A stretch of DNA of 64,000 bases from Chrysogorgia sp. JL179-B06 (lineage: Eukaryota > Cnidaria > Anthozoa > Scleralcyonacea > Chrysogorgiidae), in assembly GCA_035772405.1 (NCBI GenBank), contig JAYKKM010000070.1, positions 839,001-903,000 of the forward strand, read 5' to 3'. The notes beneath the pieces are model-generated. The model ran no database searches and had not been told where the DNA came from. It saw nothing but the letters and a program-made list of their open reading frames with translations. This document shows, piece by piece, positions 26,536 to 64,000 of the stretch (the stretch's first letter is position 1; every line of letters begins with the position of its first letter). The translations under genes were made by a program, and so were the position numbers.

Positions 26536-26966
26536 TTGATATTTCCCCATAATCTGGATTGTTGTCGACATCAACACAAATTAAGCAATCCATCTTTCTG
26601 TCGTTATGGATTGGAGTTTTCCTCGTCAAGTCCCTGGCATGTTATTCTCTTCGGCATTCTATCCAGTGATATCGCTGTTAATCCTAGTCCAGCAACAGCA
26701 AATAATTCAAACATTTATGTCAACACGTCGTGTTCTTCTGAAGTACCGACATGTAAATCAGATACGTCGTGGCTACATCTCAATGCCAGGAGTTTGAAAA
26801 GCCTTATCTGCACTTCTGATGGCTCAGTGGATTCGAACTTATCCAGATTTCAGGACCTTGTTTATTCTGAAGACTTGGACGTGGTCTTTGTTTCAGAAAC
26901 TTGGTTGAATGAGCGGGTTTTCGATGGCGAAGTCTTTCCATCTGGTTATGATATATTCAGGTCTGA
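26536..26966 (+). pseudogene. LINE 5' part: degenerate 2A and endonuclease start
   Basis: The frame has WLHLNARSLKS (about 26770-26802), the first motif of the APE-type endonuclease of non-LTR elements. DLDVVFVSETWLNE (about 26873-26915) follows, with the catalytic Glu. The frame upstream has DIAVNPSP (26668-26691) in the position where many invertebrate LINEs carry a 2A motif, but Glu and Gly are changed. The copy is cut at about 26967 by the tail of an opposite-strand LINE. It appears inserted into the Helitron-type pseudogene. The rest of ORF2 is not found on the far side of the second LINE. Confidence 0.65.
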
Positions 26967-28510
26967 TAATAATGATAATTAACTATATTTTAACAGGTTA
27001 GCTTGGTCAGGTATAAAAATAAGCTGCTATAAATCAAGGACTGTGTTCAATAAAAGTTAAATACCTACGTTAAAACAAGTAAAAGTTATAGTACAGATAG
27101 TTTTAACTTTGGACAGCAATAGTTTATTGTTATCTCCACGTGTTCCCTTCCCGTGAGAATGTTTTTGGTAGTAGCCATCGTAGCATGGAGGAGCCAAGCT
27201 GTTTAAGCATTTAAAAACATCTATTACACAAATTTTGCTTCGAATACTTTCGAGCATAGACCAATTATTTGAAATATTATTGCCATAATTTTACAATTTT
27301 GCAGTAGAGAATGATGGGTTCTATCATTGTTCTATAAATTGATTGCGCGACCAGTGGACTAACATTACACCGTATATGTGATAGAAGTTTAACTCTTCTC
27401 ATTTCCTTATACATCTTCTCTTTTTGCTCAATATACGTTAAAGATTTATCCATTTTAACCCCAAGGTATTGATAGGTTTCCACTGCATTCACCGGTGTAT
27501 TATGCATCAGTATATCCATTTTCTGGGCTTTGGACAATTTCTCGCTTGTACCATAAAGGAAAATTCCGCTTTTCCTTGTTTTAGGTTAACAACCACGTTG
27601 TTTTCGTAAAACCAATTCGTGAGATTTGACAGGTCCGAGTTTAAATTTTTTTCAATATGCTCTTGCTTCTTACTCGATGTGAAGACTACTGTGTCATCGA
27701 CATATAGTAAGATTTTACAACTGTTCAATTGATGATCAATATCGTTAATTGATATAGCTCTTTATCTTTAATGCCATAATAGGGCAATTTGGACAATATA
27801 CGACCGTGGTACACGGTGTCGAACGCTTTATTAAAATCAATAAAGACAGCACCGCATATTCGCCTTTGTCCATGCAATCCCTTATATAATCCGAGAAATA
27901 GGTGACTGCGTGCTGGGTTGATCTGCCTTTTCGAAATTCAAATTGATTTGGGGAGAGTAGACAGTGTTCCTCCAGGTAGTTACATAGCTGTCTGTGAACG
28001 ACACGCTCAAATAACTTTGCTAGGATGGGTAACACAGAGATTGACCTATTGTTATCCATTGATGATTGGTCTCCTGTTTTGTAGATCGGGGTGATGTTTG
28101 CCAATTTCTCTGCATCAGGGAAAATTGACTTCTGTAAACATGCGTTTATGAGCATCGCAAGAGGGGTGGTGGCATGGGAATGTTTTTATGACAGTGAGTA
28201 TTTCCCTTGCAGTTACTTACTTGAACTTAAAAACAAAACGATGTGGGTTGATAAGCTCTTGAAGTTTTAAGTAGCTGTGGAATATCCAATGTTTCTCCGT
28301 TAAAGTGACATAACATTTCTGAATGGATGTTCCAATTTTTGAAAATTTTTGAAAATTGCAAAAGGTGTCGGCGATTTCGTTGATATCAGTTTTCCCTGAA
28401 CATTAAGCATTTTGTTTGGGATTTCCTTCTTATTATGCATTGGATAGCATTTCTTTATTTGATCCCAAAACTGTTTTGGTCTTTTGACCACGACCTCAAT
28501 GGCCGCCATT
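26967..28510 (-). pseudogene. CR1/L2-type LINE ORF2, 5'-truncated and frameshifted
   Basis: The minus strand, read from 28510 downward, carries an ordered RT. A pre-RT segment with PKQFWDQIKKCYP (about 28435-28475) comes first. RT motifs LANITPIYKTGDQSS (about 28065-28110) and EFRKGRSTQHAVTYFSDYI (about 27895-27950) follow. The catalytic box LLYVDDTVVF is at about 27680-27712. Then come YQYLGVKMDKSL (about 27435-27475) and the C-terminal block FKCLNSLAPPCY. At least four frame changes separate these pieces. The 3' end is a decayed (ATT)n tail at about 26967-26982, typical of CR1/L2 elements. The endonuclease is missing. Confidence 0.75.
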
Positions 28511-31949: not shown

Positions 31950-34090
31950 GTTGAGCTGTCGAATCGACAGATCTCAGGTTTTTCTGCACTTCCTCTTTTT
32001 TCTTTCAATTCCTTGATTCGGTTCCGTTCGAACGTTTGGACGTGTCCGGTCCAGAGCAGTCGTTTCCCATCCGGTGGTACTGATCTTGCATCGCTTTAAG
32101 TTCGTCTTCAGTTTATCTTTATACCGTTTAACAGGAGCGCCTATTGACCGTATCCCATCAGCAAGCTGTCCATACGGCAGCATTTTCGGTAGTCGTCCAT
32201 CCTCACCAGGTGGCCTGACCAACGTAGCTGAGCCCAAAGTAAGGACGCCTCGATTCCATCCATGCCAGCATATGTTAAGAATCCTTCATGGACACCTCAT
32301 GTCGAAACTGTCCTGGACACTCTACCAACGGAACGTACGAAACCAAGTCTCGCAACCGTATAATAAGGTGGGTATGACGACTGATCGATAAACGCTGATT
32401 TTTGTCTCAAGCGAAACGTCATGCGTGGACCATAATCGCGAGTTGAGGCGGCCGAAAGAGGCATTGGCTTTACTGAGGCGGGATGTTATTTCCACATCAA
32501 TTGTACCATTGTTGCTTATCACACTGCCCAGGTACGAGAACGTGTCGGCAACTTTCAGTGGCTGGTTGTTGATGGTAATCCGCGGCATCACATACGGTGA
32601 CTCTGGTTTGGGTTGGAACAAAACTTCGGTTTTTGTGATACTAACTGTCAGGCCATAACGAACAGCAGATCGTGCAAAAGCGTCCATCAGGTGCTGAGCG
32701 TTCTCCTCGGTGTGGGCGACCAAGGCACAGTCATCGGCAAACATCAACTCTTTGATCATTATTTTTTAGGGGTTTTGGTTTTCGCTCGGAGGCGACTTAA
32801 GTTGAACACCCCGCCATCCATGCGGTAGGATATGTCGACTCCCTTGAGGCTTGGGAGTTGGATACAGTTGGAGCCAAGACGCAACCCTGCTTGGTGTCGT
32901 TTGAGACCTCAACGGGGTCTGATCCCCACCATTGCCGACAACCCTCGCCTGCATGCCGTCATGAAAGGATCGGATGATGTTGATCAATTTATTCGGACAG
33001 CCAGCACAACGAATAATTTTCCACAAGCCTAAACGGCTAACAGAGTTGAATGCTTTTGTCAGGTCAACAAATACTATGTACAAGTCTTGTGTTGTTCACG
33101 GCATTTTTCTTGCACCTGCCTTACAGCGAAGATCATATCGGAGGTCCCACGATTTTTGCTGAATCCACACTAGCTTTCCGGATGGATGTCTTCAGCCAGT
33201 GGAGATAGCCGGTTGATGATAATACGGGCGAGAATTTTCCCAGCAATTACCAACAAGGCGATGCCACGGCTGTTGTTACAGTCCGATCTATCGCCTTTTC
33301 GCTTGTAAAGTTGGCAGATGGTCGCATCTTTGAAGTCTTGAGGAACTGATTCTATAGCCCATATACGAATAAACAACTGATGCAGTCTGGAAAGCAGATA
33401 ATCGCCGCCGTATTTGTACACTTCGGGTGGAATGCCGTCGGATCCTGACGCTTTGCCAGTCTTCAGTTGTTTCATCACATTGCGAAGCTCGTCAGCCGAT
33501 GGTGGCGCTGCAAGAACCGTCATCTCGGGTTTCTGATCGATGCTACTAATGGTAGAGTCTTCGATGTCGGATGACTGATTCCAAACTTTGCTAAAGTGTT
33601 CTGACCACCGTTGGAGGATCAAAGTTGGTTCAGTAATGAGTGTATTCCCATCAAGAGTTCGCACCGGCGCGATACCGTTGAAGCTTGGATCGTACACGGC
33701 CTTCAATTCCTTAAAAAATCCCTGTGTGTCTTTTCGATCAGAAGCTGCCTGGAGTGCGCATGCTCTGTCGGTCCACCAGTCTTCTTTCAGCTGCCGACAT
33801 TTGTTCTGTGCAACACTTCGAGCCTTAAGGTAATCGTTTTTCTTAGACAGGTTTTGTTTGTCACATGCGTACTCAACATGTTTCTGGTGAAGGTCCTCCA
33901 TCATCGGAAGAATGAGAGGATCATTCTCGTCGAACCAGTCACGATGTTTACGTTCCACCTGACCGATTGTTGTAAGCGCGGCTTTCTGAGTGGCTTCACA
34001 AAATGCGTGCCATTCAGCTGTACATGAATCAAAGTTAATACCGTCGGTCTTGCCTAACTCCTTTTCCAGGTTCGTTATCAATTCGTTGCG
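31950..34090 (-). pseudogene. LINE ORF2 (endonuclease-RT type), 5'-truncated
   Basis: A long minus-strand frame, 34081-33170, carries a pre-RT helical region and the RT motifs LKTGKASGSDGIPPEVYKYG (about 33413-33470) and RGIALLVIAGKILARIIIN (about 33220-33275). The next frame, from 33083, has FVDLTKAFNSVSRLGLWKI with the first catalytic Asp. The frame 32759-32322 has LMFADDCALVAH, the catalytic FADD box (about 32715-32750), and TFSYLGSVISNNGTID. The last, 32237-31974, has RLPKMLPYGQLADGIRSIG. Frame changes near 33100, 32765 and 32300 break the protein, and the endonuclease is absent. It resembles a family widespread in marine invertebrates; I cannot fix the clade. Confidence 0.8.
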
Positions 34091-41340: not shown

Positions 41341-42017
41341 ATGTGCAATATAAAAATAGCGAACTTACGTTTGCAGAACGGCATCGCCAACCGCAACTTT
41401 AGAGGGCTGGATCGAGCCGCGCAAGTCGCCGTCCCCGCGATCACAAACGTTTTGATTACGAGCTTCACATGACGATGGTGGGAAATTCGAAATCTGTCAT
41501 TTTGATTAGGATTCTGTAATATTGTCACACCAAAACTTAAATGTGATGAAATACAGTACAATATTCAATTTTGTCATGTTTATGTCAATTAACGAAATCA
41601 GAGAGGCAAAACATAAGTCTAAGGCAAAACATAAGTCACACAGAAAAGGTTAATTACTGATAGAAAAAAAGAGCAGTACATGTACAGGTGTGCGAACGTG
41701 GAACCTACTGAGAAAAAATAGGTTACAGAAAGCTGCTTTATATTACAAAATCGAAGGGAAAGTCAAATTTTGTGATGTTGACGAGTCTTAAACGGGCTAC
41801 TGAACATTGTGCGTCGATTTGTACACATCAATCTAACAAGTTGAATATCTGACTACACAACATCTTTCATTCACTAAATTACATGTTGTTTGACGTTTCC
41901 GTGCGTATGCAAACGAAATCTTCGTGTTTTAAAATCGTCATTTTTTTGAAATATTTTTCATCTATTCCTGCGAGGTGGATCAGTTGTGATTACACATTCA
42001 AATTAGTCTCCAACACA
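41341..42017. other. Non-coding spacer to transposon edge
   Basis: No coherent frame or repeat was found. The target duplication of the large transposon begins at 42018. Confidence 0.4.
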
Positions 42018-42024
42018 GACTACA

Positions 42025-42109
42025 TTAGCCTCCTTCGCAGACGTTCTTTGTGGGCCGTGTATGCCCGCCCCCCACTAACGTCTGCTCAACCGAGCGATAC
42101 ATTCCATTC
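42025..42109 (+). repeat. Left 85-bp terminal inverted repeat
   Basis: This is identical, in reverse complement, to 47349-47433 over all 85 bases as compared by eye. It contains an internal inverted motif pair, CAGACGTT and AACGTCTG, at about 42038 and 42077, which could be protein-binding sites. The 7-base target copy GACTACA precedes it. Confidence 0.9.
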
Positions 42110-42199
42110 TGACAGTTTAACCAATCAAAGCTAACCTTCCCAAATCAGGAAGCTCGCCCTTGACCTTGGCCGCTCTTGAATATATTTTCCCGGCAAAAG

Positions 42200-44067
42200 A
42201 TGGCGGATCTCGAGTTGGCGTTCAAAAGAGTATGCGAGAAGTTTCAGATAAAGGCGCTCAATCCTTGTCAACGAAAAGCGATTATTCATATAGTTGAGAA
42301 AAAAACTGATGTGTTCGTTAATCTTCCAACTGGGTTTGGTAAATCTATGATTTACCAAGCATTACCATTAATTGTGGATACCATCTCCAAAGCGTCGGGG
42401 CACATTGTTGTGGTTGTTTCTCCGCTTATTAATCTCATGCAAGAGCAAGTTCTTTATTTACGTGATGTTGGAATTTCTTCAGTTTGTTTGAGTAAGATCA
42501 AAGATGAAGAAACAAGAGATATAGAAGAAGGGAACTTCTCTGTTGTTTATGCAACGCCTGAAGCATTAATCAAGAATGAACGTTGGCGAAAAATGCTGTC
42601 GAGCAGCGTTTATACATCGAAGATGTGTGCGATTGCAGTGGATGAAGCTCATGTCATCAAGCAGTGGTAAGTAATGAGTAATGACACAAATAAAGAAACC
42701 AACCTGTTTACGTAGATCAAACTACAAATATTGTGGTTTATTAAATAAATTTTGATTGCATTGTGATTGTTGATTGTGTTGTGTTTAATAAAGTTTATTA
42801 AATGATTCTCATTTTAAACTCAGCAATTGTTTATCATCATATTGTTTTACTTTATTATTTGAGTTTTCTTTAAATTCCATCCCATCGAATGTATAATACA
42901 ATACAAATTTTCTCCTTGTTAACATTTATATTTTATTTTTTAGGGGAACCTCAAATAACACAAACAAAGCAGTATTTCGAGAGTGTTATTCTCGCTTGCA
43001 TGAACTAAGAGCTCTTGCTCCATTGGTGAATGTTTTGGCCCTCACTGCAACAGCTACAAGATATACAATAAATACAATGTTGGAAGTTTTAATGCTTAAA
43101 GAACCCTTTGTGATATACGAGAGCCCAGACAAACCAAACATTGCATATTCAGTACTTTACATTAGCAAGGATAAAAGTGTAGAGCACTGTTTCAAATGGC
43201 TGAGCGACGAACTTATTGAACTTGGTACCAATACAACACATACTATAATTTACTGCCAAACCATAAAGCAATGCACAGTTATTTACACAACAATCAAAGC
43301 AATGCTTGGCAAGAATCTTTTTATAGGTGAAACAAAAGATTACAAAAATGTCCTACTTAATGTTACATTCTTGTACACCTGATGATAATAAGGCGACAAT
43401 TTGTACTTCATTTCAGGATGAAGCATCAGGAATACGAGTTTTGGTAGCAACCATTGCCTTTGGTATGGGTGTTGACTGCAAGGGTGTCTATCGGATAATT
43501 AATTTTGGGCCTTCTAAGAACGTTGAGTCCTACATTCAAGAAAGTGGACGAGCAGGAAGGGATGGGAAGCAAAGTGTTGCATATATAATTTACCATGGCT
43601 TGCTCCTAAATCATGTGGGAAAAGACATCAAACAGTATGTTAATACATTGAACTGCAGGCGAAAAATGTTACTAAGTCACTTTGATACCTCTTCACAAGT
43701 GAAGTGTCCTAAGCAATTGCACTTATGTTGTGATAACTGTGCTAGTAAGTGTGAATGCGGAGCTCCTGATTGTGGAAAATTGACAAAATATCCAGCTCAT
43801 ATAATGCCAGACAGTAAAACAGCTAATTATAGATGTTCAACTAGACAAGTCCTGCCTAATCAGAAGCATGTCCTGCAGACAAAATTGATTTTGTATTACA
43901 AGTTGTTGGTTCATGATATGATCAGTAAATCTGCAAATATGAAAACTTTGATGGACATCAAATTTTTGCTTGGCTTTTCAGAGCAACTAATATCTCAAGT
44001 GTTGGATAACTGTGACAAACTTTTTTCAAACTTTTTTCATTTGTCAAATGGTTTTTGTTTTTTATAA
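42200..44067 (+). pseudogene. RecQ-type DNA helicase, two exons, one frameshift
   Basis: This gene encodes a superfamily 2, 3'-5' DNA helicase of RecQ type. Exon 1 (42200-42666) starts MADLELAFKRV and has the Walker A NLPTGFGKS and the DEAH box AVDEAHVIKQW. A 277-base GT-AG intron (42667-42943) keeps phase. Exon 2 has ALTATATR (motif III), VATIAFGMGVD (motif V) and QESGRAGRDGKQ (motif VI), then a zinc-binding cluster ending CCDNCASKC. Typical RQC winged-helix and HRDC domains are absent. A single-base frame change at about 43357 (just before MLHSCTP) breaks the protein unless it is a sequence error. It is probably the transposon's helicase for excision or replication (inference). Confidence 0.8.
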
Positions 44068-44502
44068 TAATGTTATGTGGATTTGGTGGTCTACAGGTAT
44101 TTCTTAGTAGGGTTCAGGGCTGTAGTGGAGTATATTTAAGTGCCACTGCAGGTTGTGATACTTAGGGGGCATGCCCCCCTGGAAAATTTTTGGAATCTCT
44201 GAAATGCCAACCACCGAGTCTATTGATATTATTAATTTATATTATATATTACAATCTGTCGTATTTGCGTAATTGTAAAATTTATTGAAAAAAATTGACT
44301 AGAGTAAAATAATGCCATCATTGGCAGTGCCGTGGCACTTGCTACAGCCCTGCGGTTGATGTAAAAGTGATGGATGAGGGTCAGCAAAAGCATGTAGATG
44401 TAATTTTATTGTTCACAGTAAGCGTTTGGTGGGAGTGCAAGCCTTCATTTGGCATGTATATCTTAGATGACATGAAAGCTACAGTATGTAGCTGCAACTT
44501 AC
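44068..44502. repeat. hAT-like MITE between the two genes (44116-44353)
   Basis: CAGGGCTGTAG at 44116 and CTACAGCCCTG ending near 44353 are inverted, and the following AAGTGCCAC/GTGGCACTT also pair. The roughly 240-bp size and CAGGG ends suit a hAT-type MITE. An 8-bp target duplication is not clear. It sits where the C-terminal exons of the DUF6589 gene would be expected, and those exons were not found. Confidence 0.5.
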
Positions 44503-47227
44503 ACTCAGAATCTTCAATCCAGTATGCCATTCACCAAGTTGTAAAGTCATGCCTTCAAGTCGGCTTTCAGGTGTATACCCGTTGGAAAGCGATCCTATTA
44601 CATTTACAGCCCTTTCAACTGTCAACTGATCACCAGCAAACAGTTGGCCATCATATGTACCATCAGCTTTCTTTGGAATGTAGGAGTGAAAATGTTGTAA
44701 TATTGCTAACATGTCAGCATTCTCATTTTCATTTCTAAATATAACACCCAGAGGAACCTATATGGGAAACATATAATATTCCAAAGTTTTATTGACTGCT
44801 AAAGCTTGCAGCAATTGTTTACATGAGATTATTTGTTTTACCTTAAAGTTAGTTTTTAACCGAAATAAGTTATAAAAATGCCAGGATGGGAATCAGTTGT
44901 ATGTTCTGCGATCAATGTTCTGCCAAGATTCTGATAGAGATTGTGTCAAAACTTAAAACTTATGCAATGCAGTTTATATAATTATATATATAATTACAAA
45001 CATTACAGTAATGTAATGGTTTGTGATTTTGTGATTGTTACAGAAATAAAAATGAAAACTTGGATACATTTAGCCATGTGAATACCTTAGAAGTCCACTG
45101 TTTAATATATACTCAGATAATTTTAAATGCATAACAACATAATTATGTATAATTATAATAATTATAAAAAATACTGTAAGTAAATATATGTACCTTTGTT
45201 GACTTCTGAGACATTTCCTTACTATAAGTATGAGGAATGTGGTAAATACAGACATCCTTAAGTGGACCAAAGGCATCAAAATACTCAACCAAAATCCTTG
45301 ATACCAGAATGATGTAGTTAAACCTTTGCTTTTTCATATCATTATGTGAAGGCAAAAATTTCAGGTTAGATACTTTAGAAATATCTTCTTTTTGTCCTTT
45401 ACTTGTATAAGAATTACCAGATACTCTGTTTGTTACCATGCGGTGATTGATCCAGTGAATGTCCCTATTTTGATTAGCCATTGTCATGTCCTTTGTTTTA
45501 ATTTCCATGTCAATGTTATCAAAGGCAATAGTAAATCCTGGGTGATGGTTTGTTGTCTGATGCTTTAGTTCTTCTTGTGCATTATGTTTCTCTGCTGCAT
45601 GATTTGCTTCGCATCCCTCTGTACAGTCAGCAGAACAATTATGAACACTTGTGCTGATATCCTCTAGATGCTGTATGTTGCAGTTCTCCTTAGTTATAAT
45701 GTCCTTAGCAGTATGAAGCTCGGCATCAAAATCTTTCCCAAGGGTGTCTAACTTGGCCAATGTGCACTGATTTGAGCATGTCAGACGCATCTTACTAAAT
45801 CTTTGAAGGGTTGACTAAAATAAATCATAAATAATTTATTATAATTATTAAAACATGATGCCCTTATAAGTTATAACCCAAGAGGTGTACATTTACAAGT
45901 CAAATTATAAATAAACAACTACAATATTTACATGTATACATTGTTTATTTAGTTGTTTAATTTACATACTGTATAAATTTGTAGTAAATTTTTGAGGGTA
46001 ACCTTTTTAGCAATTGAGATAAATAACAAAAATAAAACAATATATAGGATGTGTTCTTTACCTCAATTGATCCTGTCTTAAGAAGGATACCAAGTACGCA
46101 GTCAGTGGCATTCATATGCGCGTTTCTTTGCTTTAACAAAATTGATCCAGCTAGCGCAACACTCGGAAGCCATCGTGCTTCTTTAGTACTGCGGGACAAG
46201 GCAACTGTCATCAAGAAGGCATAAAAGACTGGCGTTCTAGTCTGCCATTCCTCGCATAGTGATTGCATTGAATAGTTAACCAATTCACCTTTTCCAGTTT
46301 TCCTTAGTATGGATGGGGTTTTCCTCGAGCAAATCCCACTCACCTCGTTAGAGACTGTACGAAGAACGTTTTCTACAACAAACTTTGATATGGGATTACA
46401 TTTCATGACTGCATTCGCTATTTATATTCTCTTTGGTTGTCCGTGAATTAGAGCCTTTCCAAGGGCCTCATAATCTAATGACAATGTCTTGTTAACAGTT
46501 CTGCTCGGATATTCTACATATATCTTCACCTTTGCTGTTGAAACTGGGGAACACGGTACAGTTAAGGTTGGTATGGTACTGGTAGAAGATGGTATTGTCC
46601 GACTCCCTTGAATAGGGCTAGAAGTCAATGGGTATGCAAAAGATGTATTCTGAGCGACGGGTGGCGGAAATCACCAAATTGCATATTATGATCTCTGGAC
46701 AATGTTAATGAGCCAAAGGCGTTGAAACCCACTTGATATCTCTGATGACCATGAAATTGCGGTAAATATAATCCAGAATTATTTCCATAAGATGTACAAG
46801 TCGTAGTGGGATTGGAAAAATCCAATGATTTAGCTGAGCCAACGCGCTGATTTATTGCGGACGATGTTAGTTTTTCAGGTGGTCGAGCAGAATTGTTCTG
46901 GTCCATATCTGAATTTTTCCGCATCCTTTTGACTCTTAAATTTCCATCTTTAGTAAAATCGTTCTTAATTTCTTCCTTCGCATCTTCTAAATTCTTTATC
47001 TTTTTTTCTAGTCGCAGCAACCGTCTATAGCATGTCTTAAAGCATATGAACAGATCGTTCCCAGAGGAGTAGATATTGACATCGACATCAATTGCCGTTT
47101 TGATAAGACCTTTCAGGTCTACTGATGTTTTCCCAAAAATTTTAATTCTTTCATTATTTGGTGGAGCGCTGTTACAAAGAAAACATCGCAAATCTCCACA
47201 GACTATTTTTTGTGGTGTTTTATCCAT
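44503..47227 (-). pseudogene. DUF6589 protein gene, spliced, damaged and C-terminally short
   Basis: On the minus strand the first exon (ATG at 47227) starts with a ZAD-like Cys module (CFLCNSAPPN ... CFKTCYRRLLRLEKK), then a Ser/Thr-rich linker. A one-base shift near 46665 and an in-frame TAA at about 46424 damage it. The exon ends at 46062; introns 45815-46061 and 44758-45193 have GT-AG ends and keep phase. Exon 45814-45194 has FTIAFDNIDMEIKTKDMTMA and QNRDIHWINHRMV, the DUF6589 hallmark. Exon 44757-44503 has VPLGVIFRNENENADMLAIL. A further 200 or more residues usual for the family were not found. Its role is unknown; it is a candidate transposase. Confidence 0.7.
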
Positions 47228-47348
47228 TCCTGAGCTTACATACTGAAAATAAAATAATAATTTTTCGCGGGAAATTCATTGTTTACTTCTTACTTTGCCC
47301 CCCTGTGAACAATTTAAGCAAATCTGATTGGTTCCTCAAACACAAAGG

Positions 47349-47433
47349 GAATGGAATGTATCGCTCGGTTGAGCAGACGTTAGTGGGGGGCGGGCATACA
47401 CGGCCCACAAAGAACGTCTGCGAAGGAGGCTAA
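47349..47433 (-). repeat. Right 85-bp terminal inverted repeat
   Basis: This is the exact reverse complement of 42025-42109, followed directly by the second copy of the 7-base target duplication. Confidence 0.9.
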
Positions 47434-47440
47434 GACTACA

Positions 47441-48075
47441 TCCGTGAAAGTGACAAAGTTATATTAAAACTTTTTTTGGTTCTTAACGAGCGATGGATCT
47501 GTTATTCAAAAACTTAGAAAACTTATTTTAGAAAACTTATTTCTTACTCTTGCAAAAAGATTTGGATCACAAAACAAATTAAAAGTTATATTCCTGGACA
47601 ATTGTTGCAAATGGTCAAATTAGACTTGTTTCACGCTGTTCCAACAGCTGTTAAAAACTATATCAAAACAGTAAACTATGTATGCATAAATTGCAAGAAA
47701 TTATGCAATGGTTTTTCGTGATCCATTATTGGACATTGGTCCAGAAAGACGTTTACAAACAACTACAACAGAAGTGCTTGTGGCAAACCTTACTTTGAAA
47801 ACGTTGGATGAAATAAAAATTGATAATTGGAAGAAATGCATTCTTAATACTTCAACAAAGCAAACCGACTCAACTAGAAATCACAGGAGGACTTTGGCAT
47901 AGATGAAATTCCCACGAGACAGCAAATCAGAGAAAATAGGTAAAATATCTAGGATTATTTTCCAGTTCAGAAGTAAATAAAATAATCGAGGAGATTGCAA
48001 CTATACTAAAGACACTACAGTAATACAACGCCCAACACGACAGCTACATGTAACCATCACATCACCAAATACAAC
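47441..48075. other. Flank with weak frames
   Basis: The frame 47708-47902 has no recognised motif. Otherwise the stretch is AT-rich and non-coding. Confidence 0.35.
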
Positions 48076-52067: not shown

Positions 52068-54009
52068 CAGTGGCGTGCGGTCATGTAAGCGCAGGCAAGT
52101 ACTGCTTGCCTAGTCATTTTTGAAAAATAAAATGATTATAAAATGCTGATTTTTTTGCGTTTGTGTCATAATTACGATTGTTTCCTCTGCGGGGAATCAA
52201 GTGGATTATAAACGGCTTATCTTCATCTTCTTCTGTTATTGGTTGTTGTAATATTGCGCCCTGCTCGATCAATACTCATGCTATTGCTTGATTATTAACC
52301 AAGGGCAAGCGGCTTCATATCTCAAAATCAACAATTGCGCATGTGCTAAAATACGTTGGGAAGTTCCAATTCGACGAATTTTCACTGAAGGCAAGCAGCG
52401 CTTCTGAGGGCACCGCTTGATAGTTGATTGGTCAATAGGCGCGTTGTTCTAAATATATAATGCATATAAATAATGAAGACTCAGTCGTTGGTGAATGGTG
52501 ATATAATTTGAAAGGTAATGTTTAGTTCTCTATGTCAGTTATTTACTTATTCCCCTAAAAGTATTTATTGTTTATTTAATTGTTTAAACGCGCATTGAAT
52601 CAGTGACAATCACAGAGATTTAATGTTTGCGTACGCACTGTGTTATCAACTATGATTCATCAACTGAAATACTCCAATGCTTCAGAATAGCTAATACTAT
52701 AAGCTAAAATCACTGACCCTTCTCGGATAGTCTAAAACATACGAGACACGGTTTCGTCTGTTTGCCATTATAAGATAAGACGTTATGTACCAATCTATAT
52801 TAATCCATATAATATCATGTGGTATTGCCAATACCATATGATATTATCTGGATTAATATAGAGAACATACCAGACACAAATTGTTCGACGCACGTTCACG
52901 TAGCCAACAAAATAAACGATCATGTTTAATTACTTTAATAACCCTTTACGTGTCTTTTGCTGCTCAAATTTGACGCAACTATTTAATCATGCAATAATGG
53001 TGATCTTTAGTGACAACTTTCAATCTGTTTGGAAATGTGCGCAACTTTATTTATGGTTAGATGAGAACATAGCTGAGAAGCAATCTGTTTAATACAACAA
53101 ATGCGTAAATCTATATTATCGTTATCAGTCAGGAGCTCAAAAAAGGAAGGAAAGGGAGAAAACCCTTTTGGCTATAGATGCAAAGAAGACAAGGAAAATA
53201 ACTTCGTTCATGACGAGCACGATTGCTTCTGCATCAGTATCAGTGCAAGTGCAACTGCCCACAACTCCAGTGGCTCCATCTCAGGGTTGGCAAATCGTCT
53301 TATATTGTTTCTTCTTGTATTTTCTTATATTAATATAAGAAGATTTAGTTTTTGGCAAAATCTTATATTATTCTCATTGATTATAAGATAAAAATTCAAA
53401 TTGAGGTGTCTTTCTGAACAGTCATAATATGACGTCATCAATATGACTTTCAATCTGTTTGGAAATGTGCGCAACTTTATTTATGGTTAGATGAGAACAT
53501 AGCTAAGAAGCAATCTGTTTAATACAACAAATGCGTGACACCTTCATGACGTAATCGATTACGCGGTTCTCTGGTAGAATAAAGTTTATTAATAAAATAA
53601 ATTCAGTATATCATCCAGAGTGGGTATTTCAATTGCAAAATATGAACTGTATACTGTTATCAGGAATCACCAATATTATAAACTATTCCTTAATTCTTCT
53701 GATAGAGTTCTGGGCAGTATTTCTACATTATTTTTAACTGGCTGAAGAAAATATATCTACTTTTAACTCTTGACTCATGCAAAGCAAAGACCCAGTGAAT
53801 TAACATGTTTATCGTAAAAAAGATATGAATAATACCCTGCTTGTCAGATAAATTTATTTGAAAACTCGTTCCTGAAATCGCTGGAAATGCACTTCTGGCG
53901 CTTTCGAAATTCAACATTTTCTGGGGGGGGCCTGCCCCCAAACCCCCCTAGGTGCTATCCTTCAACTGGCCAGTTGAGCTTGTCTAACAATTCCTGTCAC
54001 CGCACGCCA

Positions 54010-54012
<3 letters not shown>
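52068..54012. mobile_element. hAT-like DNA element in an intron
   Basis: The ends CAGTGGCGTGCGGT (52068) and ACCGCACGCCACTG (ending 54012) are inverted. The flanks are TATATATA-type on both sides, consistent with an 8-bp target duplication in an AT repeat. The 1,945-bp interior has no recognised transposase. It includes a near-palindrome at about 52789-52861 and repeated ATGGTTAGATGAGAACATAG segments at about 53053 and 53483. It is probably non-autonomous. The tandem duplication of the region starts inside it, at 52185. Confidence 0.6.
53030..53535 (+). repeat. Internal direct repeat pair
   Basis: About 85 bases, from ACTTTCAATCTGTTTGGAAA through AATACAACAAATGCGT, occur at about 53017-53106 and again at about 53450-53535, with one or two differences. 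The pair recurs in the second tandem copy (about 58922 and 59351). The frame 53101-53391 between them has no recognised domain. Confidence 0.6.

Positions 54013-54040
<28 letters not shown>
54013..54040. repeat. (TA)n microsatellite at hAT-like target site
   Basis: This is a run of about 14 TA units directly after the right end of the hAT-like element. Its length differs slightly in the second copy (59918-59946). Confidence 0.8.
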
Positions 54041-54043
<3 letters not shown>

Positions 54044-54204
54044 TATTTGTTGTATTGCAGGCCAGGTAGTTTGTCCTGCCAACATAATACAACCACAGGG
54101 CTGCAAATTCATATAACTTTAACTTATAATAAACGAAATTTATAAATATTTAATAAGCATAATAATATGTAACTTACCATTCATTATTTGAATATTTGGT
54201 ATAG

Positions 54205-54569
54205 ACAAATCACCAGAGCCTCAGACTAATGTTGGATGCGAAACGAAGCAAGGACGTGCCCTGGAGTTCATTCTAGGCCCGGCAACCAAGGAGGTGTTAA
54301 GGTACGACAAAGCACACAAAAGAATCAAGGCATCTCCAAATAATCATGATTACCTTCAAGATTACTTGGATAATTTGGCGGTGATGGAAACCAGGGTTTC
54401 CCGTGAACAGAGGTTAACGAAAGAACGGTTGAAGATTTGGGAGCGACGACACTTCGACCAATATTGCAAACTTCCGACTTCCCAAGATGTGCTCTCTGAT
54501 CCAGCTGCAAAGCTATTGATGGACAAGCTGAAATATTGCAAAGCCGTGGTCAAGCAGTGGAAAAAGTGA
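54205..54569 (+). CDS. Terminal exon of the acidic-protein gene, copy 1
   Basis: This is the last exon: acceptor TTGGTATAG, phase 1, joining the exon ending at 52036 to give Asp at the junction. It reads KSPEPQTNVGCETKQGRALE, then a helical, charged region (YLQDYLDNLAVMETRVSREQ, LKIWERRHFDQYCKL, LLMDKLKYCKAVVKQWKK), and stops with TGA at 54567. The function is not recognised; the helices may form a coiled coil. The exon is duplicated at 60112-60476 as part of the 5.9-kb tandem repeat, where it lacks its partner exon. Confidence 0.55.
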
Positions 54570-55210
54570 AATAAATGGTTCTTTTAGGACCCAAAGATAC
54601 AAATTAAACAAACCGGCTACCAATAATAAAAAGAATTAACAAACAAAAACGCTCGAACCAAACTTACATCGGTCAGTCGGGTAATCTATTTCGTACATAT
54701 TTGTTGTCTTGTAAAGCATTAGTAAATTGCTTTTGCTAGAGTTTGAAGAGCCAGTCAAATCAACATCAGAATACAGTATTAAATCTCCAGAAAAACATGA
54801 AGAGATATAAACGAACAAGAAACGTGTTTTTAAAATACAGTACTTTAAAAATCGTTTTCGTTGCTGAGCAACGGTAGTCCAGCGGCATATCATACCAATG
54901 TGTTATCTGTTGTTTCACTGCTATTATCACACAGGAAATTTTAATATAATAATGAAATACAACGGGTATCTGTTAAACTATTATTGCACAACTACTAACT
55001 TTTAAATAAGACACGATATTCAAGCGGGTTTAGAATACATTTGAATTGCAACCGTGATCAAATTAGCATGTTCTCTACACATGACTGAGTCTTAGCGGTC
55101 AACTCGTACCCAGACCCACGCGGTGGTTGGCGGCAAAATCAATATACGCGGGTCATTTTGCGTAAGTTCTGTTATTCGGTTTCAATTCATATTTACTTTA
55201 ATGCCAACAT
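54570..55210. other. Intergenic spacer
   Basis: No supported gene was found. The minus frame 54636-54893 has no recognised domain. Confidence 0.35.
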
Positions 55211-55466
55211 ATGGGCAAGCCAGATTTGAATACGCTCGTGATGGAGAAGAAGAGAAGGATGAGGAACAACAGGAAAAAGCATCACCGACAGCAGCGCGCT
55301 CTTGAAAAGCGCGCTGCTGCCGCTGATGTGATAGCACGCAAGATCGATGATGGCATCAACGAGCAGAAGATACTCACTGCAAATATGAGGCAAAATGGAG
55401 GAACCTATGCAAGGAAACCCGAGCACTTACGAGTAAAATACCAATCCAAAATCATCGCAGAAAGGT
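55211..55466 (+). CDS. Candidate exon: basic peptide, copy 1
   Basis: I do not recognise this protein. From an ATG at 55211 the frame reads a very basic stretch (EKKRRMRNNRKKHHRQQRAL) and then a helical part (ADVIARKIDDGINEQKILTA), reaching a donor GCAGAAAG|GTAAAA at 55467. The basic run could be nuclear targeting or RNA binding. It leaves phase 2, while the next recognisable exon (kinase, 56673) starts in phase 0, so they do not join directly. An exact-looking copy lies at 61118-61373. Confidence 0.35.
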
Positions 55467-56672
55467 AAAAGTTGAGTTAGAACAGTAATTTCGTATTATG
55501 ACTGATTATTAGCCAATTCCAAGCGTACCCCCTCCCCCCCGGGACGACTCGCGCGAAATTTTCTAAAAACAATGTTAATGCATTGCCTGGCACCAGTCAA
55601 TTGAAAAGCCGGACTCCCGACCCCGGGGCTATAACGGGACTTTGTCGGGGAGATACAAGGTTTTACCAAACATTGATCTTTTGGTAGACATGAAAAATCG
55701 GGTATGATGTAGCCAGGATTTAACACTTGTACAGTCTGGGAACTAACCGATTTAGCATGATGAGATGCTTCAGACGAAAAAGCTGACGAAAAAGGAAATC
55801 CTACTATTAAATTCAAACTTTTGTTATGCTTTTTACAATTAGACTATTATTGTTGGTTTCACATTCCCACCAAAGGGTTGGTGGTTCTGTCCGAAGTGCA
55901 AGCATATGCACAAAAAATGTAGAACAGTTATTAAAAGACGAAATGAGCAAAACAAATAGAAAGCCTTAACATTTTTATAATATATATATATAATTTTTGT
56001 AATATATCTGATATAATATTAAAGAATTATTCCAAAACATCAATGTACATAAAGCATGATTTCAAATGTCCCAACCCTGGAAAGTTCCAAAGAGATGCAC
56101 ACATTTTGAATTGATTGATACATTACATTTACTATACTGTATAATGCATAATGCATACACATACTGTCTCAGCATATTTTTTAATGCTTTGTGGGTGGTG
56201 TAGTATGGACTATAATAAACTATACAACTCCCGGTATGGCAAAGCATTGTGGTAGTTGTAGTTAAATGACAGTTCATAATATTGTGTTTGTACACAGACT
56301 TGCTATTAAGGCCATAATGGCTAGCCGAGTCAGCCAACTTAAATGTTGTTACTATAGGTGCTTGTGTATGGCACTCTGGTACGGCCCTCTTGGCCAGCCA
56401 CTGATATTATTCTGAATGCAGTGCCAAAATCACACAGACATATAGTGCCTGGGCTTGGCCACCATTTGGATTGTGCTAGTTTTGAGCACTGCATACTTGA
56501 TTTGTGCCCCAAAATAGGCACTGGGGTCTCGTTATTAAAGCAAAATTCTATAATTTAGAAATCAAAAAATGATATTCATAAACAAAAATGACATTTTACA
56601 CCCTTAATTGTAATCGGAAATGTAATGTAGCTGTTGCAGATGCTTATATATTTATTTAAATATAATCTTTAG
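55467..56672. other. Intronic or intergenic stretch
   Basis: A C-rich/G-rich patch occurs at 55528-55545 and 55618-55645. No coding was recognised, and no repeat edges were seen. Confidence 0.35.
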
Positions 56673-57458
56673 GTCACAACAGATGCTGCTGGATTTACAA
56701 GTTCCTCACAGACCATTAATGTTTCTGTTAATCAGATTGGTCCTGGTGAGCTAGCACCACTTGAACAAAATGTTGGTGCAAACATTGGTGCTGGCACATA
56801 TGGAGAATGCAGTTTAAAGACATACAAACGGCTTGGCATTATTGTCCTTGAAAAGCAGGTGGAATCATCAGATGTAAAAGCTGTTATCACTGAAGCACAG
56901 TGCATGAACACATTAACACATCAATGCATTCCACAATTGCTAGGAGTGCAAATTGAACAGAAACCATACTCACTGGTAATGGAATTTGTTGGTAACAACA
57001 TGGAATCAATAACATTCCATAAGTTGTTGCTGCAAAGCATGCAAAAACAATCGCCACTTAGTAACAAAGAGTGGATCTCTGTTTGTATTGACATAACAGA
57101 AGCTGTCCAACACAGTCACCTCAAAGGCTTTTTGCATTGTCATCTAAAGACAAACAATGTACTTGTGTCTCAGGAGAGGGGCTTTGTCATAGATTTTGGC
57201 AAAGCTTGTAAAATTTCAAAGCCATCCGCTAAGAAGTACACATCCTTTTATCCACACATTGCCCCAGAGATCTTAAGAGGTCAACCAGTTGGTACTTCAA
57301 GTGACATGTTTTCACTTGGAGTAATTTTGTACACAGTTGGGAAAGCAATACAGATTACATCTATAAAATATCTAGGGGAAAAATGCAAAGACACCAATTC
57401 ACTTGCACGACCATCTGTCCCTGAAGTGCTGAGAAGGATGAGAGAAGATCCAGAGTGA
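56673..57458 (+). CDS. Protein-kinase-like exon, HRD Asp missing, copy 1
   Basis: This is one exon of 262 codons after an ATCTTTAG acceptor, phase 0, ending in TGA. It holds a protein kinase fold: Gly loop NIGAGTYGECSL (about 56790-56825), a Lys in the VLEKQ strand, Glu in VITEAQCM, the catalytic loop LHCHLKTNNVL (about 57132-57165), DFG in VIDFGKA (about 57189-57209) and APEILRG. The loop reads HCH where active kinases have HRD, so the catalytic base Asp is lost, while Lys, Asn and DFG remain. It is therefore probably a pseudokinase or ATP-binding scaffold. Related kinases are multicopy in cnidarians as I recall them. Upstream exons are not identified. Confidence 0.65.
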   Translation, partial: VTTDAAGFTSSSQTINVSVNQIGPGELAPLEQNVGANIGAGTYGECSLKTYKRLGIIVLEKQVESSDVKAVITEAQCMNTLTHQCIPQLLGVQIEQKPYSLVMEFVGNNMESITFHKLLLQSMQKQSPLSNKEWISVCIDITEAVQHSHLKGFLHCHLKTNNVLVSQERGFVIDFGKACKISKPSAKKYTSFYPHIAPEILRGQPVGTSSDMFSLGVILYTVGKAIQITSIKYLGEKCKDTNSLARPSVPEVLRRMREDPE

Positions 57459-58089
57459 GAAATTGACTCTTAATAGCTACAATAAAAAAAGATACATAAA
57501 TAATACAATACTGTATACAGCTAATTTAATTAAGGACTTAAGGTTGTTCTTTAAGGTCAAAACTCAAAACCTCAAACTCTAGATGCGAAAAGCACGAATG
57601 GGCTTGTGTGTGTGCAAGTTAGTTTGAATTATTACGTGTTGTCCATGTGATACAAAATAAAGGACAACCTTAATTGAATTAGTAAATAGAGTGCTGCGTA
57701 GACAGTGTTTTGAATATATAGCAAAGTGAAAAGGTGGTAAACTGCCAAGAATTTAGTGACGAGATACTGACGTTTCGAGCGGAGCCCTTCATCAGAGTAA
57801 GACGAGATGAAATGAAATAAATAGGGCTTATATATATATGCCAAAAGGGTGTCACAAGTAGAAAGTAGCCAATCAAATGCACGGGAGATAAACAAACTAA
57901 TAATTAATGAGATGGGAAACGTTAGATCATTTGCTATTTTTAACAGTCGATCAGCAAGCAGACTGAGGGGGCGGGAGAAATGACAGGTCCAATATTCAAG
58001 GGGATTAGGCGATAATATTAGCATAAGAAACAAAAACTTGAAAAGGAATGAAAGCCAATTGTATAATAATTGTATACCTTAGGTAAAAA
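57459..58089. other. 3' flank of kinase exon to duplication boundary
   Basis: A TTTAAGGTCAAAACTCAAAACCTC-type low-complexity patch lies near 57552. The minus frame 57632-58033 crosses the Penelope-type motif and is unrecognised. The duplication junction is at 58090. Confidence 0.35.
57720..57800 (-). ncRNA. Hammerhead-like / Penelope-type terminal motif, copy 1
   Basis: On the minus strand the motif is CTGATGA (57795-57789), a GGGCTCCGCTC stem-loop, then GAAAC (57776 downward) and GTCAGTATC. This is the hammerhead core order. The short third stem is not convincing, so activity is doubtful. It marks a Penelope-type repeat remnant. Confidence 0.4.
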
Positions 58090-59914
58090 CTCTGCGGGGA
58101 ATCAAGTGGATTATAAACGGCTTATCTTCATCTTCTTCTGTTATTGGTTGTTGTAATATTGCGCCCTGCTCGATCAATACTCATGCTATTGCTTGATTAT
58201 TAACCAAGGGCAAGCGGCTTCATATCTCAAAATCAACAATTGCGCATGTGCTAAAATACGTTGGGAAGTTCCAATTCGACGAATTTTCACTGAAGGCAAG
58301 CAGCGCTTCTGAGGGCACCGCTTGATAGTTGATTGGTCAATAGGCGCGTTGTTCTAAATATATAATGCATATAAATAATGAAGACTCAGTCGTTGGTGAA
58401 TGGTGATATAATTTGAAAGGTAATGTTTAGTTCTCTATGTCAGTTATTTACTTATTCCCCTAAAAGTATTTATTGTTTATTTAATTGTTTAAACGTGCAT
58501 TGAATCAGTGACAATCACAGAGATTTAATGTTTGCGTACGCGCTGTGTTATCAACTATGATTCATCAACTGAAATACTCCAATGCTTCAGAATAGCTAAT
58601 ACTATAAGCTAAAATCACTGACCCTTCTCGGATAGTCTAAAACATACGAGACACGGTTTCGTCTGTTTGCCATTATAAGATAAGACGTTATGTACCAATC
58701 TATATTAATCCATATAATATCATGTGGTATTGCCAATACCACATGATATTATCTGGATTAATATAGAGAACATACCAGACACAAATTGTTCGACGCACGT
58801 TCACGTAGCCAACAAAATAAACGATCATGTTTAATTACTTTAATAACCCTTTACGTGTCTTTTGCTGCTCAAATTTGACGCAACTATTTAATCATGCAAT
58901 AATGGTGATCTTTAGTGACAACTTTCAATCTGTTTGGAAATGTGCGCAACTCTATTTATGGTTAGATGAGAACATAGCTGAGAAGCAATCTGTTTAATAC
59001 AACAAATGCGTAAATCTATATTATCGTTATCAGTCAGGAGCTCAAAAAAGGAAGGAAAGGGAGAAAACCCTTTTGGCTATAGATGCAAAGAAGACAAGGA
59101 AAATAACTTCGTTCATGACGAGCACGATTGCTTCTGCATCAGTATCAGTGCAAGTGCAACTGCCCACAACTCCAGTGGCTCCATCTCAGGGTTGGCAAAT
59201 CGTCTTATATTGTTTCTTCTTGTATTTTCTTATATTAATATAAGAAGATTTAGTTTTTGGCAAAATCTTATATTATTCTCATTGATTATAAGATAAAAAT
59301 TCAAATTGAGGTGTCTTTCTGAACAGTCATAATATGACGTCATCAATATGACTTTCAATCTGTTTGGAAATGTGCGCAACTTTATTTATGGTTAGATGAG
59401 AACATAGCTAAGAAGCAATCTGTTTAATACAACAAATGCGTGACACCTTCATGACGTAATCGATTACGCGGTTCTCTGGTAGAATAAAGTTTATTAATAA
59501 AATAAATTCAGTATATCATCCAGAGTGGGTATTTCAATTGCAAAATATGAACTGTATACTGTTATCAGGAATCACCAATATTATAAACTATTCCTTAATT
59601 CTTCTGATAGAGTTCTGGGCAGTATTTCTACATTATTTTTAACTGGCTGAAGAAAATATATCTACTTTTAACTCTTGACTCATGCAAAGCAAAGACCCAG
59701 TGAATTAACATGTTTATCGTAAAAAAGATATGAATAATACCCTGCTTGTCAGATAAATTTATTTGAAAACTCGTTCCTGAAATCGCTGGAAATGCACTTC
59801 TGGCGCTTTCGAAATTCAACATTTTCTGGGGGGGGCCTGCCCCCAAACCCCCCTAGGTGCTATCCTTCAACTGGCCAGTTGAGCTTGTCTAACAATTCCT
59901 GTCACCGCACGCCA

Positions 59915-59917
<3 letters not shown>
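58090..59917. mobile_element. hAT-like element, copy 2, lacking its left end
   Basis: This is the duplicated part of the hAT-like element, missing the first 117 bases including the left terminal repeat. The right end ACCGCACGCCACTG is intact (ending 59917). In this copy the internal palindrome (about 58694-58766) is perfect at a site where copy 1 has a mismatch. Confidence 0.65.
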
Positions 59918-59951
<34 letters not shown>

Positions 59952-60111
59952 ATTTGTTGTATTGTAGGCCAGGTAGTTTGTCCTGCCAACATAATACAAC
60001 CACAGGGCTGCAAATTCATATAACTTTAACTTATAATAAACGAAATTTATAAATATTTAATAAGCATAATAATATGTAACTTACCATTCATTATTTGAAT
60101 ATTTGGTATAG

Positions 60112-60476
60112 ACAAATCACCAGAGCCTCAGACTAATGTTGGATGCGAAACGAAGCAAGGACGTGCCCTGGAGTTCATTCTAGGCCCGGCAACCAAGGAG
60201 GTGTTAAGGTACGACAAAGCACACAAAAGAATCAAGGCATCTCCAAATAATCATGATTACCTTCAAGATTACTTGGATAATTTGGCGGTGATGGAAACCA
60301 GGGTTTCCCGTGAACAGAGGTTAACGAAAGAACGGTTGAAGATTTGGGAGCGACGACACTTCGACCAATATTGCAAACTTCCGACTTCCCAAGATGTGCT
60401 CTCTGATCCAGCTGCAAAGCTATTGATGGACAAGCTGAAATATTGCAAAGCCGTGGTCAAGCAGTGGAAAAAGTGA
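60112..60476 (+). CDS. Terminal exon of the acidic-protein gene, copy 2 (orphan)
   Basis: This is the same exon as 54205-54569, coding for the same residues as far as compared, with the same TTGGTATAG acceptor. Because the duplication starts downstream of the penultimate exon, no partner exon lies directly upstream. Transcripts reading through from the first gene could use either terminal exon, skipping or including the copies. A substitution just after the stop (AAATAAATGG to AAAGAAATGG) is one of the copy differences. Confidence 0.5.
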
Positions 60477-61117
60477 AAGAAATGGTTCTTTTAGGACCCA
60501 AAGATACAAATTAAACAAACCGGCTACCAATAATAAAAAGAATTAACAAACAAAAACGCTCGAACCAAACTTACATCGGTCAGTCGGGTAATCTATTTCG
60601 TACATATTTGTTGTCTTGTAAAGCATTAGTAAATTGCTTTTGCTAGAGTTTGAAGAGCCAGTCAAATCAACATCAGAATACAGTATTAAATCTCCAGAAA
60701 AACATGAAGAGATATAAACGAACAAGAAACGTGTTTTTAAAATACAGTACTTTAAAAATCGTTTTCGTTGCTGAGCAACGGTAGTCCAGCGGCATATCAT
60801 ACCAATGTGTTATCTGTTGTTTCACTGCTATTATCACACAGGAAATTTTAATATAATAATGAAATACAACGGGTATCTGTTAAACTATTATTGCACAACT
60901 ACTAACTTTTAAATAAGACACGATATTCAAGCGGGTTTAGAATACATTTGAATTGCAACCGTGATCAAATTAGCATGTTCTCTACACATGACTGAGTCTT
61001 AGCGGTCAACTCGTACCCAGACCCACGCGGTGGTTGGCGGCAAAATCAATATACGCGGGTCATTTTGCGTAAGTTCTGTTATTCGGTTTCAATTCATATT
61101 TACTTTAATGCCAACAT

Positions 61118-61373
61118 ATGGGCAAGCCAGATTTGAATACGCTCGTGATGGAGAAGAAGAGAAGGATGAGGAACAACAGGAAAAAGCATCACCGACAGCA
61201 GCGCGCTCTTGAAAAGCGCGCTGCTGCCGCTGATGTGATAGCACGCAAGATCGATGATGGCATCAACGAGCAGAAGATACTCACTGCAAATATGAGGCAA
61301 AATGGAGGAACCTATGCAAGGAAACCCGAGCACTTACGAGTAAAATACCAATCCAAAATCATCGCAGAAAGGT
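61118..61373 (+). CDS. Candidate exon: basic peptide, copy 2
   Basis: This is a copy of 55211-55466 with the same reading frame and donor GCAGAAAG|GTAAAA. The protein is unrecognised; see copy 1 for the composition. Its preservation says little, since the whole unit is nearly identical. Confidence 0.35.
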
Positions 61374-62578
61374 AAAAGTTGAGTTAGAACAGTAATTTCG
61401 TATTATGACTGATTATTAGCCAATTCCAAGCGTACCCCCTCCCCCCCGGGACGACTCGCGCGAAATTTTCTAAAAACAATGTTAATGCATTGCCTGGCAC
61501 CAGTCAATTGAAAAGCCGGACTCCCGACCCCGGGGCTATAACGGGACTTTGTCGGGGAGATACAAGGTTTTACCAAACATTGATCTTTTGGTAGACATGA
61601 AAAATCGGGTATGATGTAGCCAGGATTTAACACTTGTACAGTCTGGGAACTAACCGATTTAGCATGATGAGATGCTTCAGACGAAAAAGCTGACGAAAAA
61701 AGGAAATCCTACTATTAAATTCAAACTTTTGTTATGCTTTTTACAATTAGACTATTATTGTTGGTTTCACATTCCCACCAAAGGGTTGGTGGTTCTGTCC
61801 GAAGTGCAAGCATATGCACAAAAAATGTAGAACAGTTATTAAAAGACGAAATGAGCAAAACAAATAGAAAGCCTTAACATTTTTATAATATATATATAAT
61901 TTTTGTAATATATCTGATATAATATTAAAGAATTATTCCAAAACATCAATGTACATAAAGCATGATTTCAAATGTCCCAACCCTGGAAAGTTCCAAAGAG
62001 ATGCACACATTTTGAATTGATTGATACATTACATTTACTATACTGTATAATGCATAATGCATACACATACTGTCTCAGCATATTTTTTAATGCTTTGTGG
62101 GTGGTGTAGTATGGACTATAATAAACTATACAACTCCCGGTATGGCAAAGCATTGTGGTAGTTGTAGTTAAATGACAGTTCATAATATTGTGTTTGTACA
62201 CAGACTTGCTATTAAGGCCATAATGGCTAGCCGAGTCAGCCAACTTAAATGTTGTTACTATAGGTGCTTGTGTATGGCACTCTGGTACGGCCCTCTTGGC
62301 CAGCCACTGATATTATTCTGAATGCAGTGCCAAAATCACACAGACATATAGTGCCTGGGCTTGGCCACCATTTGGATTGTGCTAGTTTTGAGCACTGCAT
62401 ACTTGATTTGTGCCCCAAAATAGGCACTGGGGTCTCGTTATTAAAGCAAAATTCTATAATTTAGAAATCAAAAAATGATATTCATAAACAAAAATGACAT
62501 TTTACACCCTTAATTGTAATCGGAAATGTAATGTAGCTGTTGCAGATGCTTATATATTTATTTAAATATAATCTTTAG

Positions 62579-63364: not shown

Positions 63365-63625
63365 GAAATTGACTCTTAATAGCTACAATAAAAAAAGATA
63401 CATAAATAATACAATACTGTATACAGCTAATTTAATTAAGGACTTAAGGTTGTTCTTTAAGGTCAAAACTCAAAACCTCAAACTCTAGATGCGAAAAGCA
63501 CGAATGGGCTTGTGTGTGTGCAAGTTAGTTTGAATTATTACGTGTTGTCCATGTGATACAAAATAAAGGACAACCTTAATTGAATTAGTAAATAGAGTGC
63601 TGCGTAGACAGTGTTTTGAATATAT

Positions 63626-63706
63626 AGCAAAGTGAAAAGGTGGTAAACTGCCAAGAATTTAGTGACGAGATACTGACGTTTCGAGCGGAGCCCTTCATCA
63701 GAGTAA
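63626..63706 (-). ncRNA. Hammerhead-like / Penelope-type terminal motif, copy 2
   Basis: This is the duplicate of the motif at 57720-57800, with the same CTGATGA...GAAAC order on the minus strand. Confidence 0.4.
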
Positions 63707-64000
63707 GACGAGATGAAATGAAATAAATAGGGCTTATATATATATGCCAAAAGGGTGTCACAAGTAGAAAGTAGCCAATCAAATGCACGGGAGATAAACA
63801 AACTAATAATTAATGAGATGGGAAACGTTAGATCATTTGCTATTTTTAACAGTCGATCAGCAAGCAGACTGAGGGGGCGGGAGAAATGACAGGTCCAATA
63901 TTCAAGGGGATTAGGCGATAATATTAGCATAAGAAACAAAAACTTGAAAAGGAATGAAAGCCAATTGTATAATAATTGTATACCTTAGGTAAAAACTCTG

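Follow-up and report, generated by a model that had tools for sequence, protein, structure and literature searches.

The locus considered here raises the question of what kind of mobile element carries a RecQ-type helicase together with a protein of the DUF6589 family, and which of its products might serve as the transposase. It lies within a window, the whole stretch of 64,000 nucleotides from the anthozoan Chrysogorgia sp. JL179-B06 that was analysed, and all positions given below are counted from its first letter. An earlier note, made from the letters of the window, had described a 5,409-bp unit with identical 85-bp terminal inverted repeats (TIRs), a perfect 7-bp target duplication and two convergent spliced genes, and had known of no named superfamily combining these two genes. 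Among the papers covered by full-text searches, none contains the word DUF6589, and the Pfam accession of the family, PF20231, matched only an unrelated optics paper.

Boundaries of the element and the length of its target duplication

The segments 42025–42109 and 47349–47433 are reverse complements at 85 of 85 positions, with 5239 bp between them, and GACTACA flanks both sides of these inverted ends. Using the 85-bp end as a query against the genome (781 Mb, with the window on contig C70), we recovered 54 matches, which begin at query position 2 in 35 cases, at position 1 in 15 and further in for the remaining 4. Two of the 15 are the window copy's own ends, and the frequency of starts at position 1 (15/54) is close to the chance expectation for a base outside the element. 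Since most end matches start at position 2, the TIR is 84 bp long, the element extends from 42026 to 47432 and the target duplication comprises 9 bp. The resulting 5407-bp copy, delimited by comparing its TIRs and target duplication with those of copies in the same genome, is AcademH-like and internally deleted. Its left TIR occupies 42026–42109 on the forward strand, starting with TAGCCTCCTTCGCAG, and its right TIR, of the same sequence (84/84 bp), occupies 47349–47432 on the reverse strand. With the ends taken as TAGCC...GGCTA, the copy is flanked on both sides by the 9-bp AGACTACAT, at 42017–42025 and 47433–47441 of the forward strand.

The duplication had looked like 7 bp because its first base, A, is complementary to its last base, T, and was taken for part of the TIR; complementary outer bases of this type add one to the apparent TIR and remove two from the apparent duplication, and can in this manner disguise 9 bp as 7. 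The earlier note was right in recognizing a transposon and the full complementarity of the 85-bp ends, whereas its limits and its 7-bp duplication have to be revised. The proposed signature of TTAGCC ends with a 7-bp duplication is rejected, with 35/54 end matches starting one base inward, and gives way to TAGCC with 9 bp in the window family.

Positions 42037–42085 (forward strand) of the left TIR form an imperfect palindrome (GCAGACGTT ... AACGTCTGC), possibly representing a hairpin or paired binding sites; its folding has a z of -2.14, with an equally good fold in 5 of 200 shuffles. Rfam, applied at the gathering threshold to the whole window, gave no match. Inside the element, a stretch of 238 bp at 44115–44352 has short inverted ends CAGGGCTGTAG.

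Copies of the window family and related families in the same genome

We examined 18 two-ended copies of the window family, counting only those end matches whose partner end was found by BLAST in the stretch fetched. Four are long, namely the window copy (5407 bp) and those on contigs C121 (8327 bp), C231 (6189 bp) and C263 (10209 bp), and 14 are short derivatives of 72–100 bp consisting of two TIR arms. An exact 9-bp duplication, one of the features of AcademH elements, flanks 16 of the 18; the exceptions are L019, with one mismatch, and L024, with no duplication. All three other long two-ended copies contain both helicase and DUF6589 matches, as the earlier note had anticipated for full copies, although it had expected flanks of 7 bp and not 9. 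Five further copies, each with a single end recovered, yielded helicase matches in every case and DUF6589 matches in three, within the stretch fetched. Since long copies occur in this one genome side by side with deletion derivatives and with tiny palindromic ones, the family should be useful for studying the role of a transposon-borne helicase.

The 9-bp duplication is also found in other DUF6589 families with different TIRs, at two of the four loci fetched: the 9157-bp copy of the C360 family is flanked by GTGATTGCG and the 8368-bp copy of the C276 family by GGTTGATCC. At the other two, the C418 locus has a damaged left end and the C143 locus has no TIR in the stretch fetched. The C276 family displays the same complementary-edge illusion of a shorter duplication.

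Association of the helicase with DUF6589

A RecQ-type match occurs within 10 kb at 40 of the 48 scored DUF6589 loci, in convergent orientation at 38, against an arithmetical chance expectation of about 0.0024 per locus, the loci being copies of few families and not independent events. These 48 loci were merged from 57 matches (51 of 1021 candidates scored), and the helicase search covered 90 of 732 candidates. The two exceptions to convergence, at C339 and C483, each involve an additional DUF6589 piece in inverted orientation. In a separate survey of flanks of about 1.5 kb on each side, a RecQ-type match was present at 24/30 DUF6589 loci, including three (C269, C379 and C359) of the eight that lack a helicase in the 10-kb count. 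Viewed from the opposite direction, of the 86 merged helicase loci 38 lie no more than 10 kb from a scored DUF6589 locus; among the others, some are more distant RecQs (34–45% identical) and some are close relatives. Elsewhere, the longest contig is 594823 bp for both the DUF6589 protein P0151 and the helicase P0033 of Stylophora pistillata, and 8133 bp for both P0005 (DUF6589) and P0052 (helicase) in JGI data, which suggests that each of these pairs resides on one contig. The central proposal of the earlier note, a DNA transposon family in which DUF6589 is paired with a RecQ-type helicase encoded by the element itself, thus has strong support from the long copies and from both surveys of DUF6589 loci.

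Since RecQ genes ordinarily serve DNA repair in the host, one might ask whether an ordinary TIR element merely picked up host RecQ and DUF6589 genes at the window locus. Such a capture is contradicted by the recurrence of the convergent pair at 38 loci and by its presence inside TIR-bounded copies with different TIRs, and we regard it as exceedingly improbable.

Gene structure and decay of the window copy

The helicase gene lies on the forward strand, with exon 1 at 42200–42666 (the DEAD part, Pfam 7.4e-18; also delineated by tblastn with P0030 and P0033) and exon 2 at 42944–44028 (Helicase_C, 2.6e-14; RecQ_Zn_bind, 2.9e-06), separated by an intron with GT–AG ends. Convergent to it, on the reverse strand, the DUF6589 gene comprises exon 1 at 46062–47227, encoding a Cys-rich N-terminus, exon 2 at 45191–45814, with FDNIDM bearing the putative first catalytic Asp, and exon 3 at 44500–44757, with GDQLTVERA and GEWH, which matches PF20231 at 28.6 bits (cut-off 27 bits); its introns are likewise GT–AG, and the next exon is absent. 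Conserved Cys pairs mark the N-terminus of DUF6589 proteins. Relatives seem to share the position of the intron that follows exon 1, many of their open frames stopping shortly past SIEV. The named close protein relatives are anthozoan.

Aligned with its 8327-bp counterpart on C121, the window copy is 98.6% identical over element positions 1–2002 and 97.2% over 2013–5407, and leaves out 3008 bp, the joint of this internal deletion being at 44027–44038. The deleted segment contains the C-terminal tail of the helicase and DUF6589 exon 4, which in C121 matches profile positions 152–276 at 26.9 bits (just below the cut-off of 27) and 269–406 at 69.7 bits; the window copy has nothing that corresponds to the profile beyond position 153 of 410. 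Consequently, the window copy retains both putative catalytic Asps, while the exon with the Glu, the putative third acid, is deleted. Further lesions are a frameshift in helicase exon 2 near 43360–43364 and two defects in DUF6589 exon 1, namely a frameshift located within 46634–46688 and an in-frame stop at 46422–46424. With the deletion, the frameshifts and the stop, neither full protein can be encoded by the window copy; the convergence, the spliced structure and the Pfam matches of the two genes stand as first described, but both genes are broken. No exon-4 match was obtained in the C231 copy either, and the C121 and C263 copies have frame changes within their genes.

Identical TIRs are no clock in a DNA transposon. 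The exact target duplication suggests that the insertion of the window copy is young, and if the damage was already present at that time, the insertion would have been made in trans.

DUF6589 as a candidate transposase

The conservation of D, D and E residues, together with the fact that no other gene was recognised, makes DUF6589 a likely DDE transposase. In an alignment of 11 DUF6589 proteins (P0006, which skips the region, being excluded, and gapped rows uncounted), the Asp of the FDN motif is present in 8/8 (with P0156 doubtfully aligned), that of GDQ in 9/10, with P0003 lacking it, and the Glu of DLxxEH in 8/8. In P0150 the three residues correspond to D334, D485 and E808, with spacings of 151 between the two Asps and 323 between the second Asp and the Glu, and a C2H2-like stretch lies between the latter two. 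Among DUF6589 loci of the genome that holds the window, 28/28 keep the second Asp and 28/30 the Glu, with the first Asp falling outside the covered region. Of the three conserved acidic residues that the earlier note had suggested looking for, the second and third are thus kept at nearly all genomic loci, and the first in the aligned proteins. The 30 genomic loci amount to 16 distinct strings and are not independent, and full conservation is common in this exon (mean majority 0.71 over 365 positions, 29.6% fully conserved), such that the conservation of the acids among them would support a DDE transposase and not prove it.

Two AlphaFold models of DUF6589 proteins, built from alignments of 17 and 13 rows, were poor (mean pLDDT 47.9 and 45.7), and a profile search of solved structures with DUF6589 returned only C2H2-finger chains (E 0.43 and 0.54). 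No relative was confirmed in viral contigs with the alignment of 11 proteins or with a 20-base TIR pattern, in prokaryote genome contigs with a second alignment (A1), or in phages and prokaryote genome contigs with P0003.

With models too poor to show an RNase H fold, one might take the view that DUF6589 is an accessory protein, with the DNA cut by another enzyme, for example a transposase of another element supplied in trans. Against this, a scan of 10 of the 18 listed ORFs in the centre of the 8327-bp C121 copy, the one copy on which the gene-content argument rests, found no family above the cut-off other than pieces of DUF6589; moreover, DUF6589 has a RecQ-type match beside it at 40 of 48 loci and conserves its D and E residues. 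We consider an accessory role very unlikely. The earlier suggestion of DUF6589 as candidate transposase remains likely, and it provides a probable function for genes that are now annotated just as DUF6589.

Relationship to known transposons

AcademH, a lineage of the Academ superfamily of which Kojima 2020 is reportedly the defining paper, is one of several groups to which the element can be compared. Kolobok elements duplicate TTAA at their target, as opposed to the 9 variable bases of the window family, and this separates it from KolobokH. The nuclease of AcademX is XPG, and no XPG match was present in eight window pieces or in 10 ORFs from the centre of the C121 copy. MuDR/MULE elements resemble the window element in their duplications of about 9 bp and long TIRs, and no Pfam MULE domain was found in eight window pieces or in five relatives of the DUF6589 family.

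According to PMC10045372, AcademH elements have a target duplication of 9 or 10 bp and AcademX elements one of 3 or 4 bp, and this length seems to be tied to the presence of a helicase in the former and a nuclease in the latter. The window element, with its helicase and 9 bp, differs in both respects from AcademX, a branch of the same superfamily as AcademH. A RecQ helicase in Academ had been cited in 2013 among transposon-encoded accessory proteins (PMC3627910), and our element shares this helicase with it by description only. AcademH and KolobokH are treated as helicase-bearing in PMC10799480, and reference lists there and in PMC10045372 give the title of Kojima 2020 as placing AcademH in animals and fungi. 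KolobokH also has a RecQ helicase beside a DDE transposase, which is putative in our case; as described in PMC9587614, its helicase is downstream of the transposase domain and it is found only in fungi, both being points of difference. The accessible portions of PMC12210899, PMC12730594 (helicase only), PMC8290104, PMC9970103 and PMC10294476 contain no sequence or motif that could be tested.

The element fits AcademH in its superfamily II/RecQ-type helicase, its TIRs and the length of its duplication, with no difference seen, the comparison being one of descriptions and not of transposase sequences. In all probability it adds a new member to this already reported kind, and the earlier impression that no named superfamily has the pair is probably wrong, given the RecQ helicase cited for Academ (PMC3627910) and the AcademH helicase and 9–10 bp duplication published in PMC10045372. 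What may be new here is the proposed link between Pfam DUF6589 and the AcademH transposase.

Two other placements deserve consideration. The element could belong to a separate, unnamed superfamily whose DUF6589 transposase independently acquired a RecQ helicase, with its likeness to AcademH confined to the duplication length. This draws on the descriptive nature of our comparison and on the precedents of RecQ helicases joining other transposons, namely KolobokH in fungi and Kolobok-1_CCri in a red alga (PMC9587614); but the combination of a helicase with 9 duplicated bases is just what has been published for AcademH (PMC10045372), which has already been reported from animals and fungi, and we find such a superfamily decidedly unlikely. 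Likewise improbable is a related proposal in which DUF6589 constitutes a separate family of DDE transposases. Its acids would lie in FDN, GDQ and DLxxEH, with a C2H2-like finger separating the latter two motifs, and its convergent RecQ partner would be obligate; the resulting lineage would stand apart from the Academ elements described so far and would use its helicase to open the palindromic ends while transposing.

Very probably, the window element is a defective copy, probably recently inserted, of a DNA transposon of the cut-and-paste type that belongs to the AcademH lineage.

Under this AcademH assignment, the DUF6589 protein, acting as a DDE transposase, would bind the TIRs, perhaps through the inverted GCAGACGTT motifs, cut both ends and join them to the two strands of the target at points separated by 9 bp. 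The helicase might aid in unwinding or remodelling the ends, the targets or the joints that follow strand transfer, and defective copies, along with the palindromic derivatives of 72–100 bp, would be mobile only in trans.

Relatives of the element's helicase carry the names WRN-like, Bloom-like or Med34-like in cnidarian annotations, and some of the RecQ-like genes in these annotations may be transposon genes.

Minimal and aberrant copies of the element

The same genome contains 14 tiny elements of 72-100 bp (L018-L028, L032, L042 and L043), each composed of two facing arms of the terminal inverted repeat (TIR) and 12 of them flanked by exact 9-bp duplications; these are the smallest non-autonomous derivatives seen. 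Two further loci, L031 and L036, are half-elements that retain a single TIR arm of 48-49 bp without the other arm, and in both the left 9 bases recur after the lone arm; one arm was possibly lost after insertion. At L041, which has a GGCTA end, the left 9 bases recur after 57 bp. The copy on contig C483 (L015) contains two copies of DUF6589 exon 4, the exon with the putative third catalytic acid, in inverted orientation. Within the AcademH-like copy of the window itself (42026-47432), a 238-bp stretch at 44115-44352 is bounded by inverted CAGGGCTGTAG ends, and inspection by eye revealed no clean duplication flanking it.

Other features in the window

Domain matches identify remains of a BEL/Pao-type retroelement at 264-5649, comprising DUF1759, the Pao peptidase A17 and an integrase zinc-binding domain, together with a sub-cut-off match to the integrase core. 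Reverse-transcriptase-like frames occur on the minus strand at 27748-28185 and 32325-32765, with RVT_1 matches below the Pfam cut-off. An OTU-protease frame followed by DUF6570 pieces spans 23541-26540, an arrangement known from Helitron-like elements. The right end of the window (52185-64000) is occupied by a head-to-tail tandem repeat of a 5.9-kb unit, whose two copies (52185-58094 and 58090-64000) are 99.8% identical. The first copy contains a protein-kinase frame, the domain having been tested there, and the second a near-identical frame; the pair represents either an assembly effect or a recent tandem duplication.
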